A stretch of DNA of 40,044 nucleotides, taken from contig NZ_QVFV01000002.1 in assembly GCF_004212215.1 (NCBI RefSeq), forward strand, positions 1,277,326 to 1,317,369. Reading direction: 5' to 3'. This stretch comes from Leptolyngbya iicbica LK. Its GTDB lineage: Bacteria > Cyanobacteriota > Cyanobacteriia > Phormidesmidales > Phormidesmidaceae. Numbering within the stretch: the first letter of the stretch is position 1; each line of letters starts with the position of its first letter. Position numbers and translations under genes: made by a program. Of this stretch, positions 4,956-37,213 are shown in pieces. The notes beneath the pieces are model-generated. The model saw only the letters and a program-made list of their open reading frames with translations. It was not told where the DNA came from and did not search any database.

Positions 4956-6068
4956 ATGACACATCAAATTCTCGGACCCTCTAATACGGGTCAAAAATAC
5001 GAACGAATAAAGGGACCCTACTACGCGATGACGTGGCAGCGAGCCTGCCAAGCCCATCAAGATGGCATTTTGACTACTAGGGGACTCATCTACTGCTACT
5101 TCGTTATCCACCTCTCCCCTGGTTCCGAAGTGCGCGTTGATGTCACCAAACTGTGTTCCTTGCTCAAAGTTCACGAAGCGACCTATTACCGAGCCGTCGG
5201 AGCCCTCAAACAAAAGGGACGATTGAATACCCGGCGGGGGCAAATGATGGTTAGTGTCCCCGAAATCCACCCCCTGTCGGCTCAGTCGCAGTTGCGCGAG
5301 TCCGAGTCGCCATCCTGCGAGTCTGAATCGCCATCCTGCAAGTCCGAGTCGCAATGCTGCGAGTCCAATTTGCAGAGCTGCGAGTCCAACTCGCAATCCT
5401 GCGAAAACGCAAATCAAGGAAACGCCATTAATGACAAGGGCTCTCGCAGTTCTGCGAACGTACCAAAACAAAGAGATCAATTGTTAAAAAACAACAAACA
5501 GTTGGTACCCACCCACCACCCTGTTGGTTGTTTCGGAATTGACAGAGAAGGTATTGGTAGATCTTCCTCAGGAGTGCAAGGGGATCGCCTTGTTTCCCAA
5601 ACCTCTTTGCTGGAAGACCTGATAGCACTAATCCACGTATCCGGGATCCAGGCCAACACAACAATTCAAAAAACGTTGTTGGAGTTGATCAACTCCAACG
5701 ATCCTGCCGCCGCCCGTCAGATTGTGGAAAACGCCCTCAGCGCCCTCCAGGAACAGGAACAAAGGGGCCAGGTTCGCAACCCCGGCGGCTTCCTCAAAAC
5801 TGCCCTCCAGCGCGGCTTCACAGCCAATCAGGCCAAGCGCGATGCTCGTGCACAACGGCAACACCGCCAGCCCCCTCCTGATCCCATTCAAGTCTCCATT
5901 TCTATTGATCAGGCCCTTGCCAATGGTGACCAAGACTTTGCCCTATCCAAATTGCAGACCCTTTGGCATGAAGGCTGGCAAGCCGAAGTGACTGAACTGC
6001 TGAATGTCTTACGTCAGGACTGGCCCTTTGTGATCGCCGAGGAGGGAGTCCAACATGCTTGTAGATAG
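4956..6068 (+). CDS. Replication-initiator-like winged-helix protein with intragenic iterons
   Basis: A 370-residue product from the ATG at 4956 (MTHQILGPSNTGQKYERI). The first ~105 residues look like the winged-helix DNA-binding domain of phage or plasmid initiators (GLIYCYFVIHLSPGS..KLCSLLKVHEATYYRAVGALKQKGRL). Residues ~114-149 form a Ser/Glu/Cys-rich heptad array (ESESPSC and variants) encoded by 21-bp iterons. The C-terminal half has ELINSNDPAAARQIVE and RNPGGFLKTAL, the latter resembling the NPxGWL/NPxGFL motif of DnaD-like or plasmid replication proteins. The layout (N-terminal wHTH, origin repeats in the gene, C-terminal helicase-recruiting part) matches the plan of the lambda O protein. 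It is flanked by the xis/int module. The frame stays open upstream to a TTG at 4797, an unlikely start. Role inferred, not proven. Confidence 0.55.
   Translation: MTHQILGPSNTGQKYERIKGPYYAMTWQRACQAHQDGILTTRGLIYCYFVIHLSPGSEVRVDVTKLCSLLKVHEATYYRAVGALKQKGRLNTRRGQMMVSVPEIHPLSAQSQLRESESPSCESESPSCKSESQCCESNLQSCESNSQSCENANQGNAINDKGSRSSANVPKQRDQLLKNNKQLVPTHHPVGCFGIDREGIGRSSSGVQGDRLVSQTSLLEDLIALIHVSGIQANTTIQKTLLELINSNDPAAARQIVENALSALQEQEQRGQVRNPGGFLKTALQRGFTANQAKRDARAQRQHRQPPPDPIQVSISIDQALANGDQDFALSKLQTLWHEGWQAEVTELLNVLRQDWPFVIAEEGVQHACR
5296..5415 (+). repeat. Array of five 21-bp direct repeats (candidate iterons) inside the rep-like gene
   Basis: Units at 5296-5316, 5317-5337, 5338-5358, 5359-5379 and 5380-5400, with a partial sixth to about 5415. 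Four units begin GCGAGTC, one GCAAGTC; most contain a GTCGC/CTCGC core and end in ATCCT or similar. An AT-rich tract follows at about 5463-5500. Exact 21-bp phasing with tolerated amino-acid changes suggests DNA-level constraint, as expected for initiator binding sites at a replication origin. Confidence 0.65.
5463..5533. other. AT-rich tract and inverted repeat next to the iterons (candidate origin unwinding region)
   Basis: Downstream of the iterons the sequence becomes rich in A runs (5463-5500), then forms an inverted repeat AAACAACAAACAG (5489-5501) with CTGTTGGTTGTTT (5521-5533), one mismatch. Iterons followed by an easily melted segment is the usual arrangement of theta origins. It is still within the coding frame. 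Confidence 0.4.
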
Positions 6069-6617: not shown

Positions 6618-7752
6618 CAGCATTTAAATCGTCGTCATTCTCTTCTTCGTCATCCCACAGGGGAGGCAACTGCGCTCCCTTTCCCGTCTTGCCTAGGTAG
6701 TTCTTGAATAAAGTTTCCTCTTTGTGGCCGGTCAGTTCCGCAACCTCAACGGGAGGAACCTTCCCATCAATCGCATGAGACACAAACGTATGGCGAGTGT
6801 TGTAAGACTTACGATACTCCACTCTCACTTCCTTCAGCACTGACTTCCAGGCCCGGTTGCGGAAGTTGTGGTCATCAATCGGTCCACCCCGCCGCGATGG
6901 AAACACCAGGTCTTCTGGGTCCGGTTTCAGCTCAGCCCTCAGCGCCTGCAATCCTTTCCGCAGTTTCGGCGTCAGCATAAATTCACGGGCTTGGTTTGTT
7001 TTGGTGCTCTTCCGCTTGCCCCGGCTGTATGTCTCACCAATCCACACGCGCTCGCACTTATCCGACAGATGCTTCCACTTCAGCCCGATTGCCTCCCCTG
7101 TTCGGCATCCCGTCGAGAGCAAAAAGAACACGAAACCGTAGTAGTAGCCATATCGCGCATGGCCGTTAAACCCTTCTAGAATCCGCTTCACCTCATTACG
7201 GCTGAATGGCTTCGGCGGTTGTTTTGGCGGCACCTTTACCTTCACCCCTGCCCACGGATTAGAGCGCACCATTCCGCGATCGCTCCCCCACTTCCAGCAG
7301 GCCCGCATGATCGATAGTCGCTCTGATGCGGTGCGCGGCGCTAGCTGCTCTAACAGCCAATCCCGAAACTCAAAGCAATTGGCTTCGGTGAGCGTCTGCA
7401 CCTGCCGATTCCTAAAGTAACTCTGCAGGTGCTTCAGCAGCCCCTCATACTTCTCCAGAGTGCGCGGATCGGGTACTTCCCGCCGCTTGTACGCCATGAA
7501 CCTCTCAAACAGTTCAACGACCGACAATCCTCCCTGGCCAATCTCGCGATATTTGCCTAGCGTTTCGTCAAATTGCCCTGAGAGCATATCGGCCTCAATA
7601 ATGGCTGCCCGCTGCTGCGCCAATGCGCGGTTCGTCACTGTATCAGGCAGACTTAGGGACATTTCGTAGCGGCGCTTCTGGTATGTCCACCGCAACCGCA
7701 GCCATCCTCTCTGCTCAGAAATGCTGACTTTACCCTTATTTGAGCGTCCCAT
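6610..7752 (-). CDS. int: Tyrosine recombinase (integrase)
   Basis: A 380-residue site-specific recombinase from the ATG at 7752; a TTG at 7794 would add 14 residues. The N-terminal arm-binding segment (KGKVSISEQRGWLRLRWTYQ) is followed by a SAM-like core-binding domain (LFERFMAYKRREVPDPRTLEKYEGLL) and the catalytic domain. Visible catalytic positions are Arg217 (TGCRTGEA), Arg320 in YNTRHTF (the first box residue is Tyr, not His), His343 (ELTGHKEE) and the nucleophile Tyr352 (LFKNYLG). The gene points away from tRNA-Val, whose 3' end is about 160 bp from the integrase start, the classic arrangement for an element inserted in a tRNA gene. It appears intact, so the element may still be excisable if both att sites persist. 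Confidence 0.92.
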   Translation of the reverse strand: MGRSNKGKVSISEQRGWLRLRWTYQKRRYEMSLSLPDTVTNRALAQQRAAIIEADMLSGQFDETLGKYREIGQGGLSVVELFERFMAYKRREVPDPRTLEKYEGLLKHLQSYFRNRQVQTLTEANCFEFRDWLLEQLAPRTASERLSIMRACWKWGSDRGMVRSNPWAGVKVKVPPKQPPKPFSRNEVKRILEGFNGHARYGYYYGFVFFLLSTGCRTGEAIGLKWKHLSDKCERVWIGETYSRGKRKSTKTNQAREFMLTPKLRKGLQALRAELKPDPEDLVFPSRRGGPIDDHNFRNRAWKSVLKEVRVEYRKSYNTRHTFVSHAIDGKVPPVEVAELTGHKEETLFKNYLGKTGKGAQLPPLWDDEEENDDDLNAAS

Positions 7753-7907: not shown

Positions 7908-7914
7908 AAGGGAT

Positions 7915-7987
7915 GGACGTAACTGGACTCGAACCAGTGACCCCCACGATGTCAACGTGGTGCTCTAACCAACTGAGCTATACGTCC
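7915..7987 (-). tRNA. tRNA-Val (GAC)
   Basis: 73 nt on the minus strand. Acceptor GGACGTA (5') pairs with TACGTCC (3'), and the D-arm GCTCAGTTGGTTAGAGC is typical. The anticodon stem CCACG/CGTGG encloses TTGACAT, giving anticodon GAC. The T-arm ACTGG-TTCGAGT-CCAGT is perfect. CCA is not encoded. Its 3' end faces the integrase and is the likely attachment site of the element to the left. I found no second copy of the 3' portion within the window. Confidence 0.95.
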
Positions 7988-24899: not shown

Positions 24900-25810
24900 A
24901 TGGCCTCTCAATCCTCCCCCCCGATCCGACCGCTGAATGTCGGCGACGTCGTTAGTGCCGCGATTAGCCTCTTCCGCACGAACTTTGGCACCTACATTGG
25001 CCTCAATCTCAAATCGGTGTTGTGGTTTATGGTGCCGGTTTACGGCTGGGCTAGAGGGCTGATGATTCAGTCACAGATTGCCCGGCTTGGCTTTCGCGAA
25101 CTGAACCGACAGCCAGAGACGGTCGATCAATCTCTACAGGCGATCGAACCGCGCCTGTGGACTTTTTTGGGCATTGGCTTGCTGGTCTGGCTGATTCAAG
25201 CGGCGGTCGGTTACGCCGTTTCCTTTGCCATGACGATTGTGACTACGCCGTTTCCTTTGCCATGACGATTGTGACCTTTCCCATTTCCATCATTGGCAGT
25301 GCGGGCGGCGAGGCTGCAGCGGCCCTATCGGCCTTAATGTTGGTCGTGGTGCAATTGGTGGTGCTAGCCGCCCAACTGTGGATACAAGCCCGCCTGTATC
25401 TGTGGAATTTGATCTTGGCCATGGAGTCAGAAATTGAGTCCACCACGGCCATCAACCGTAGTTGGGAACTGACCAAAGGCAACGGCGTACGGGTTTTGTT
25501 TTCATTGCTGATTGCCTATTTGGTGATGTTGCCGCTGTATGCGCTGATGATCGTCATTCCCGTGCTCATTGCCATTCCCTTTTTAGGCGGTCTGCTAGAA
25601 AGCGAAGCCCCGAGTGCAGCCGCAGTAGTAGGAATTCTGCTCGCAGTTTTTGTCTTTCTGGTGTTAGCGATCGTCGTGGGCATTTTTACAGCCCCCTTCT
25701 TTCAGACGATTAAGTCGGTGCTGTATTACGACCTCCGCAGCCGCCGCGAAGGGATGGATATTCAGTTTCGCGATCGCCCCCGTGATCAGCGTGAGCCCAG
25801 AGATTCATGA
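24900..25810 (+). pseudogene. Multi-pass membrane protein, frameshifted by a 32-bp tandem duplication
   Basis: Reading from the ATG at 24900 gives MASQSSPPIRPLNVGDVVSA and a membrane protein whose frame ends at 25265. The rest (FPISIIGSAGGEAAAALSALML ... SVLYYDLRSRREGMDIQ) continues in another frame to 25810. The cause is an exact 32-bp tandem duplication at 25212-25275; with one copy removed, the whole gene reads as 292 residues without a break. The restored protein has about six transmembrane helices and resembles families next to RDD genes (glycerophosphodiesterase-membrane-domain-like; NRSWELTKGN is a typical internal segment). Its end overlaps the RDD gene start by ATGA. Truncation in this genome, slippage-based switching, or a sequencing/assembly artefact are all possible. 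Confidence 0.8.
25212..25275. repeat. Exact 32-bp tandem duplication inside a coding sequence
   Basis: Units 25212-25243 and 25244-25275 are identical, each starting TACGCCGTTTCC and ending GATTGTGAC. Because 32 is not a multiple of 3 the duplication shifts the frame of the membrane-protein gene. Both copies being identical suggests a recent event. Confidence 0.95.
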
Positions 25811-36417: not shown

Positions 36418-36702
36418 GGGATGGCTATACGCCCAATGGAGTTCCACAGCAGTCCGATGTGATTACAGAGACTTTTTGAATTGAACACACAAAGCTCCGC
36501 CCCAAACGCCGCGAGCCCCGCTGGCGAAAGGGAGGTCTAAGTGCTCAGTGCTGATGGAATGGCAGATCTTAGGCAGACTGCAAGTCAGTGAACTTGGCGT
36601 AGCCATCAGACTTTGCTGGAGTGAAAGGAATGTCAGCTTCTCAGAAGGGAATATTAATCCTTTAATTCTGGAAAAATAAGCCTTTGATGGAAAGTTGAGA
36701 AT
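36418..36702. other. Intergenic region before the tRNA-Ala array
   Basis: About 285 bases without a supported gene. An 87-codon minus frame (36463-36726) runs into the first tRNA copy and is spurious. Confidence 0.4.
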
Positions 36703-36719
36703 GGAGAATAGGAGATTCG

Positions 36720-36744
36720 TTGGCACAGCTCCTCTGTAAGAGGC
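36720..36744 (-). repeat. Insert in T-loop of copy 1
   Basis: 25 bases replace one T (net +24). On the minus strand it contains the hairpin CCTCT-TAC-AGAGG followed by AGCTGTGCC. It occupies the same T-loop site as the insert in copy 2 and shares its layout. Confidence 0.65.
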
Positions 36745-36767
36745 ACTCCTGACCTCTGCGGTGCGAT

Positions 36768-36791
36768 TGTCCGCCGGACACCCTACGGGAA
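36768..36791 (-). repeat. 24-nt insert at anticodon loop of copy 1
   Basis: On the minus strand two adjacent hairpins: CCC-GTA-GGG and TGTCC-GGC-GGACA. It lies between the 5' anticodon stem CTGCG and the loop base A32, splitting the HIP1 octamer GCG^ATCGC. Identical to the insert at 36909-36932. Confidence 0.7.
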
Positions 36792-36860
36792 CGCAGCACC
36801 TCTACCAGCCAAGAGAATTCCCTTAATTGAATGAGTTAAAAATGGAGAATAGGAGATTCG

Positions 36861-36884
36861 TTCGCGGAGCGTCTCCAGGGGAGA
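36861..36884 (-). repeat. 24-nt insert in T-loop of copy 2
   Basis: Minus strand: hairpin TCTCC-CCT-GGAGA followed by CGCTCCGCGAA. Same position and layout as the copy 1 T-loop insert, with changed stem bases that keep pairing. Confidence 0.7.
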
Positions 36885-36908
36885 AACTCCTGACCTCTGC
36901 GGTGCGAT

Positions 36909-36932
36909 TGTCCGCCGGACACCCTACGGGAA
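36909..36932 (-). repeat. 24-nt insert at anticodon loop of copy 2
   Basis: Identical in sequence and position to 36768-36791: two small hairpins, CCC-GTA-GGG and TGTCC-GGC-GGACA on the minus strand. Confidence 0.7.
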
Positions 36933-36983
36933 CGCAGCCCCTCTACCAACTGAGCTAATTCCCCGAATTGAATGAGTTGAAAT

Positions 36984-37055
36984 GGAGAATAGGAGATTCG
37001 AACTCCTGACCTCTGCGGTGCGATCGCAGCGCTCTACCAGCTGAGCTAATTCCCC
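36984..37055 (-). tRNA. tRNA-Ala (CGC), the intact copy
   Basis: 72 nt. Acceptor GGGGAAT pairs with ATTCTCC (one G-U). The D-arm is GCTCAGCTGGTAGAGC; anticodon stem CTGCG/CGCAG encloses ATCGCAC, giving anticodon CGC for Ala GCG codons. T-arm AGGAG-TTCGAAT-CTCCT. CCA is not encoded. The stem-loop contains the HIP1 octamer GCGATCGC. It is the only uninterrupted member of four tandem copies. Confidence 0.93.
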
Positions 37056-37090
37056 AGGTTTTGTGGATGGGGTAGCGCAACGGCGCACTT

Positions 37091-37157
37091 CTGAGGTGCG
37101 AATGGCCTTCGGCCAGGCTCTGCCTACGCAGCGCTCTACCAGCTGAGCTAATTCCCC
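37091..37157 (-). pseudogene. tRNA-Ala copy 4, 5' half with a 24-nt insert, 3' half lost
   Basis: From 37157 the sequence matches the intact tRNA 5' half (GGGGAATTAGCTCAGCTGGT to CTGCG), then has a 24-nt insert (37103-37126), then TTCGCACC. After that the anticodon 3' stem, T-arm and acceptor are replaced by unrelated sequence (CTCAGAAGTGCGCC). It is therefore a truncated, non-functional copy, first in the direction of transcription. Confidence 0.7.
37103..37126 (-). repeat. 24-nt insert at anticodon loop of copy 4
   Basis: Minus strand: AGGC-AGA-GCCT followed by GGCC-GAA-GGCC. Same position and length as the anticodon-loop inserts of copies 1 and 2 but different sequence, again two tandem hairpins. 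Confidence 0.7.
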
Positions 37158-37213
37158 CTATCGAATTGCTATCCTAGCAGAATCCGATGCTGGCAAGGAA
37201 CGCAATTCCCTTT

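Follow-up and report, generated by a model that had tools for sequence, protein, structure and literature searches.

The window, a 40,044-nt stretch of the Leptolyngbya iicbica LK genome (genome code G000; other genomes are cited by codes of the same kind), includes a tandem array derived from tRNA-Ala(CGC), the members of which are designated A to D. B is the intact gene, A lies upstream of it and C and D lie downstream (Table 1). The first-pass annotation had described four tandem tRNA-Ala copies, one of them intact. One copy, B, is indeed intact, but the rest are two damaged full-length copies and one half copy, the 3′ half of A being no longer tRNA-Ala. B, C and D are separated by 18-19 bases, and the acceptor stem of C can still pair. 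At the position corresponding to the tail of A, several relatives have a GCACC...GGTGC hairpin. No promoter or terminator for the array was found by consensus. A single Rfam family covering the whole array was considered and rejected, as nothing in the window beyond its two intact tRNAs reached the threshold.

Table 1. Features of the tRNA-Ala(CGC) array, in window positions. For inserts, the strand is the one on which the given sequence is read; a caret marks the point of insertion.
Feature	Position	Strand	Basis or remark
Whole tRNA-Ala(CGC) array	36702-37157	minus	Order in the tRNA direction: A, B, C, D
Copy A, 31-nt tRNA 5′ half	37127..37157	(-)	31/31 identical to the 5′ half of B
Insert in A, TGGCC TTC GGCCA GGC TCT GCC TA, then CG, preceding base A	37103..37126	(+)	Sequence
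Tail of A, tRNA-Ala identity lost	37056..37102	(-)	Sequence
Copy B, intact tRNA-Ala(CGC), sole insert-free copy	36983..37055	(-)	ARAGORN and Rfam, 66.2 bits in Rfam
HIP1 octamer GCGATCGC, anticodon arm of B; anticodon insertion site without insert	37020..37027	(.)	Sequence
Copy C, full-length tRNA-Ala copy, two inserts, D stem damaged	36843..36964	(-)	Sequence
Anticodon insert in C, TGTCC GCC GGACA CCC TAC GGG AA, in GCGAT^CGC	36909..36932	(+)	Sequence
T-loop insert in C, TCTCC CCT GGAGA CGC TCC GCG AA, in GTT^CGAATC	36861..36884	(-)	Sequence
Copy D, full-length tRNA-Ala copy, two inserts, acceptor and D arm altered	36702..36823	(-)	Sequence
Anticodon insert in D, same sequence as the anticodon insert of C	36768..36791	(+)	Sequence
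T-loop insert in D, CCTCT TAC AGAGG AGC TGT GCC AA, preceding base G	36720..36743	(-)	Sequence

The earlier description of five inserts, each of 24 nt, located at two fixed sites, was borne out by the sequence. All five consist of two hairpins, the first with a stem of 5 bp and the second with one of 3 bp, each closed by a 3-nt loop, and of two further bases (5+3+5+3+3+3+2, or 13 + 9 + 2 = 24), the final two bases being AA except in A, where they are TA. CG follows directly in all five cases. Three inserts are preceded by T, that of copy A by A and the T-loop insert of D by G; the last of these also has, as judged by eye, one mismatch in its short stem. The layout is read on the plus strand in the three anticodon inserts and on the minus strand in the two T-loop inserts, that is, on opposite strands. 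The five constitute one structural family, a point that goes beyond the first-pass annotation. The four inserts in which all eight pairs are Watson-Crick are the sole perfect eight-pair matches to the layout in the 40-kb window, and all four stand before CG.

The three anticodon inserts are located after base 31 of the anticodon stem and split the HIP1 octamer between its bases 3 and 4, while the two T-loop inserts lie within a sequence that is not HIP1. SDR5, which Elhai et al. reportedly described in 2008, is said to be a small dispersed repeat (SDR) of Nostoc-type cyanobacteria found only within HIP1. A later source states that SDR5 inserts precisely between bases 3 and 4 of HIP1, an octamer whose role is there called unclear (PMC4390886). 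The anticodon inserts have this same insertion point, and the likeness to SDR5 is one of site. The array inserts differ from SDR5 in that they are located in tRNA genes, in that exact patterns and a 400-kb sample placed them, within their own genome, at one locus only, and in that the restriction to HIP1 does not hold for them, the T-loop inserts lying elsewhere, though closely similar modules also occupy HIP1. The anticodon arm of tRNA-Ala(CGC) is itself a HIP1 site, which ties the octamer to a tRNA gene. The TTCGA of the T-loop is a second T^CG beside the HIP1 of the anticodon arm. A tRNA gene offering two T^CG targets could thus be entered by an element that needs no knowledge of tRNA.

The distribution of such modules was analyzed with exact sequence patterns. 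The pattern embedded in HIP1 had matches in 50 of the 291 genomes of the class, three of which (G000, G021 and G079) had them, by coordinates, in the array only. In the family, it matched 104 times in 43 of 63 genomes, and 17 of these 104 matches were placed in tRNA-Ala arrays by coordinates; this share is far above the expectation for a few sites per genome, with the reservation that the copies are related by descent and not independent. The T-loop-type pattern was found in 45 of the 291 class genomes and 18 of the 63 family genomes, and the reversed-pattern control gave no match in any genome. Matches to the two patterns overlap on opposite strands in G040 (C1:1492136-1492167), G110 (C42:31986-32017), G017 (C9:93534-93565) and G228 (C1:2705775-2705806), which indicates that the T-loop and anticodon inserts belong to a single family, read from either strand. 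The closely similar modules in the HIP1 sites of other genomes make the inserts look like SDR-type elements.

In the L. iicbica genome itself, the exact patterns, which would miss divergent copies, gave two HIP1-type matches and one T-type match, all inside the array. A sample of 400 kb of this genome (20 stretches) contained 10 perfect eight-pair shapes, one of them before CG, compared to 15.6 and 0.7 in shuffled sequence of the same size (10 shuffles). The perfect shapes of the array are therefore far above chance. No other module was found at HIP1 in this sample, which has 674 intact HIP1 sites. The 400-kb scan and the exact patterns together led us to reject the view that this genome is generally rich in SDRs. 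The search of the same genome for the 24-nt modules, proposed in the first-pass annotation, thus found them in the array only (exact patterns, and shape scan of 400 kb), and a restriction of the 24-mers to another conserved RNA, which that annotation had named as a refutation, was not seen. In a smaller scan of four relatives, covering 80-120 kb each, G012 had eight elements in its array and a weaker one at another place, G011 had three elements, of which one belonged to the array, G005 had a single element, located in a displaced tRNA half, and G016 had none. In G011, two twin-hairpin modules away from the tRNA-Ala array, at position 18376 of L138 and position 12679 of L139, are located between CTA and CG.

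The tRNA-Ala(CGC) locus was read in 41 of the 63 family genomes. No more than 10 or 11 candidates per genome were scored in this search, in which absence from a genome is not proof. Inserted extra copies were present in 26 of the 41 loci, a fraction biased towards arrays because mostly best-scoring matches were read; 24 were recognized by script and two, those of G005 and G002, failed the script's flank rule and were counted from a separate reading. By the scripted count, 43 units carry an insert, which is 24 nt long in 39 of them, 23 nt in two, 25 nt in one and 48 nt in one; another 39 units are insert-free, and no locus has more than one of these. Outside the 43 stand three rows, of 96 and 73 nt (overlapping counted units) and 49 nt (an unrelated chance match), as well as compound inserts such as that in the second copy of G011; the intact copy of G069 is cut by a contig end. 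The comparison of this locus among relatives, also proposed earlier, therefore showed no more than one insert-free copy in any locus read, where a locus spans a few kb.

Units upstream of the intact tRNA keep the 5′ half of the gene and those downstream mostly the 3′ half, with the exception of cut-short downstream copies in G070 and at the last position in G013 and G031. G012 has eight consecutive upstream units of 104 bp each, and the full A-B-C-D order is found in G068, which belongs to another genus. The upstream 31 nt have 0-2 changes from the reference in most genera (the exceptions are G031, with 7, and G071, with 6), while the tail varies. In several genera, the upstream unit, composed of the 5′ half, the insert and often the GCACC...GGTGC hairpin, is located directly before the intact tRNA. 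It is absent or reduced to a remnant in 18 of the 41 loci, namely 15 without any inserted copy and those of G011, G013 and G079, which have downstream copies only. Close relatives differ in this respect: G023, G072 and G073 have no upstream unit, G016 and G035 have a remnant, and G028 and G067 have the unit. A literature search, to which most subscription papers were closed, found no report of SDRs in tRNA genes.

The age of the insertions was considered on an rpoC1 tree of 50 genomes, whose deep branches are weakly supported and which does not include G027, G031 and G008. Arrays occur in genera g1 (that of L. iicbica LK), g7, g8, g9, g11 and g12; among the matches listed, a single tRNA was found in G007 (g3), G010 and G020 (g6), G018 (g14) and several g12 genomes. 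G015 (g11) and G002 (g1) both have a nested insert of 48 nt, very similar in the two, and the same T-to-G change precedes a related CCTC-type T-loop insert in copy D of L. iicbica and in G003 (g1), G027 (g7) and G068 (g12). The anticodon inserts read have one orientation throughout, although HIP1 is palindromic; this uniformity fits inheritance and says nothing of recent mobility. Taken together, the nested inserts and flank changes common to several genera and the single orientation point to old insertions that were inherited and to disappearance of the array from some lineages, such as those of G016, G035 and G063, where only a remnant of the upstream unit is left. The first-pass reading of a minute mobile element inserting repeatedly into tRNA genes is supported as to the mobile repeat, which agrees with the site, the length, the layout and the HIP1 modules of other genomes, but has to be amended as to repetition, since several insertions predate genera. 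Unusual T arms set G013, G011 and G031 apart; in these three genomes, the four C copies compared match the intact copy of their own genome at all 42 outer bases, which suggests recombination between them.

Covariation was assessed in the 27 distinct anticodon inserts of exactly 24 nt, leaving out those of 23, 25 and 48 nt. Pairing was found in 96.8% of the 216 cells versus 78.4% in shuffles, and 32 cells were changed on both sides versus 10.4; neither value was reached in any of 500 shuffles. Double changes affected four of the eight pairs (reached by 95 of 500 shuffles), and eight further pair types were present (reached by 44 of 500); these two weaker measures do not decide the matter. These counts are inflated by kinship, as the inserts are related by descent. 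The compensatory changes could result from selection on the structure or from template-switch repair, that is, correction of palindromes, and either would be sufficient. The first-pass statement that stem bases change while pairing is kept is therefore in agreement with a covariation above that of shuffles, but its corollary, that structure seems selected, loses its exclusiveness because template-switch correction could have the same effect. The predicted fold of the copy C transcript was no better than those of shuffles (z −0.08), and that of A plus B did not reach significance (z −1.70; 11 of 200 shuffles folded at least as well). In the best A plus B fold (window 36983-37160), the 5′ half of A has as its pairing partner the 3′ half of B, and the upstream unit could disturb the folding of the working tRNA.

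SDRs are repeats of 21-27 nt with predicted hairpins that show compensatory changes and, for some, nested insertions; an RNA intermediate has been proposed for their movement. To our knowledge, few smaller mobile elements have been proposed, and the way in which SDRs move is not known. The inserts agree with SDRs in general in their length, all but four of the 43 inserted units having one of exactly 24 nt, and in their hairpins with compensatory changes. Many dispersed copies were not found in their own genome by the exact patterns or by the 400-kb shape scan, and a low number is dispersed in relatives.

We consider it likely that the locus is an old tandem tRNA-Ala(CGC) array with one working copy, the other copies being pseudogenes that were colonized by SDR-type elements inserting at T^CG and that were homogenized with the working copy. 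This reading starts from direct observations: the sites, the layout, the compensatory changes, the similar HIP1 modules in other genomes, the arrays in several genera and the absence of a second insert-free copy from every locus read. An SDR-type element of 24 nt would have entered through the two T^CG targets, the HIP1 of the anticodon arm and the TTCGA of the T-loop, and would have been tolerated only in spare copies. The spare copies would then have been inherited and multiplied by unequal crossing-over, and their similarity to the working gene may have been kept by recombination over the shared 5′ half, in the case of the upstream units, or 3′ half, in that of the downstream units. Some facts sit less easily with it, among them the two downstream copies of G011, which are nearly intact apart from their inserts. 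That a mobile element should be confined to one locus in its own genome is odd, and it must be a fossil there, or else the locus is special. Insert-free duplicates were not seen; perfect duplicates may collapse quickly, or the element and the duplication may be linked.

A more demanding proposal, which we regard as doubtful, makes the tRNA-Ala(CGC) locus a home for SDR-type elements whose special status is due to selection or to mechanism. The extra copies, which in the loci read always have the twin-hairpin module, would owe their persistence to it, and element and duplication would be causally linked, either because insertion makes or stabilizes the duplicate or because the hairpin-bearing half-tRNA leader is functional. 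The related possibility that the flanking copies act as a functional RNA leader and trailer, with the upstream unit kept by selection, for example for steering the processing or folding of the precursor, would account for its place directly before the intact tRNA in several genera, for an upstream 31 nt mostly within 0-2 changes while the tail varies, and for the preserved insert structure. It is nonetheless unlikely, since the unit is missing or a remnant in 18 of the 41 loci, close relatives included, the tail sequences are strongly divergent, the conserved 5′ half is explained by recombination with B, and the A plus B fold was not significant. The other reading of the first-pass annotation, in which the inserts behave as unusual introns that are lost from the RNA and C and D also yield tRNA, proved very improbable. 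The two fixed sites in tRNA loops, the structured inserts, the pairable acceptor stem of C and the two downstream copies of G011, nearly intact apart from their inserts, would be expected of introns. However, the upstream copies have no tRNA 3′ half, and inspection of 14 downstream copies by eye showed the acceptor or D stem to be altered or lost in 11 (two each in G000, G013, G031 and G068 and one each in G004, G027 and G079); the other three are that of G070, without a 3′ half, and the two nearly whole copies of G011. Removal of the inserts would therefore not restore a tRNA. Moreover, similar modules occupy HIP1 sites elsewhere in other species, and the C transcript folds like shuffles. A collapsed or expanded repeat created by assembly is almost certainly not the cause: array units do lie at contig ends in the draft relatives G002, G004, G069 and G081, but the L. 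iicbica contig is 1.57 Mb long, the copies differ from one another, and arrays are found inside large contigs of G012, G011, G005 and G082.

The extra copies could also derive from integrative elements that use tRNA-Ala(CGC) as their attachment (att) site, the partial copies being left-over att sites. Displaced tRNA 3′ halves are indeed found at seven loci outside the array, preceded by a conserved sequence with ATCTACC or similar at its end: L219 and L234 (both G005), L220 (G002), L221 (G066), L222 (G071), L232 (G064) and L235 (G062). The half at L221 starts with ATCGTGCC and the other six with ATCGCACC, and four of the seven have a T-loop insert. In addition, a Pfam search of seven genomes located tyrosine-integrase genes in two, G028 (C41:168193) and G063 (C1:62840), in both cases on the downstream side of the intact tRNA and at a distance of about 0.75 kb. 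The displaced halves and these integrases indicate that tRNA-Ala(CGC) is probably an integration site, one whose boundary coincides with the anticodon insert site. As the origin of the array, however, integration appears improbable. A, C and D hold 5′-half sequence in tandem, which att duplication would not bring, and B, C and D are 18-19 bases apart. No integrase gene lies beside the L. iicbica array, the nearest being about 30 kb off, near a tRNA-Val gene, and the Pfam search found none close to the G005 array or to either of its displaced halves. Inspection by eye of the ORF lists beside the displaced halves of G005 and G064 also gave no integrase. The tyrosine-integrase domain of the L. 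iicbica window (6694-7203, G000:C2:1284019-1284528) is located about 0.7 kb from the tRNA-Val(GAC) gene at 7914-7987 and may mark an integrated element.

Short repeats inside genes for structured RNAs have a precedent in cyanobacteria, as STRR/SDR insertions occur in the RNase P RNA gene of heterocystous species. There the interrupted RNA is the working one, whereas in the array the inserts are in spare copies only. REPIN palindromic repeats are likewise small, non-coding and hairpin-forming and spread through the genomes of bacteria, but they are longer than the array inserts and tied to a transposase. With tRNA introns the inserts share a place near the anticodon loop; they differ in lying between bases 31 and 32, in having a second site in the T-loop and in being hosted by mostly broken genes. 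The array offers a fixed place for such elements in copies of one tRNA gene across several genera, with an insert-free control in the same locus, and this control makes the age, orientation, nesting and structure of the inserts comparable. Elsewhere in the window, a 21-bp tandem repeat of 5.2 copies at 5296-5404 and a perfect 32-bp direct duplication at 25212-25275 were also observed.
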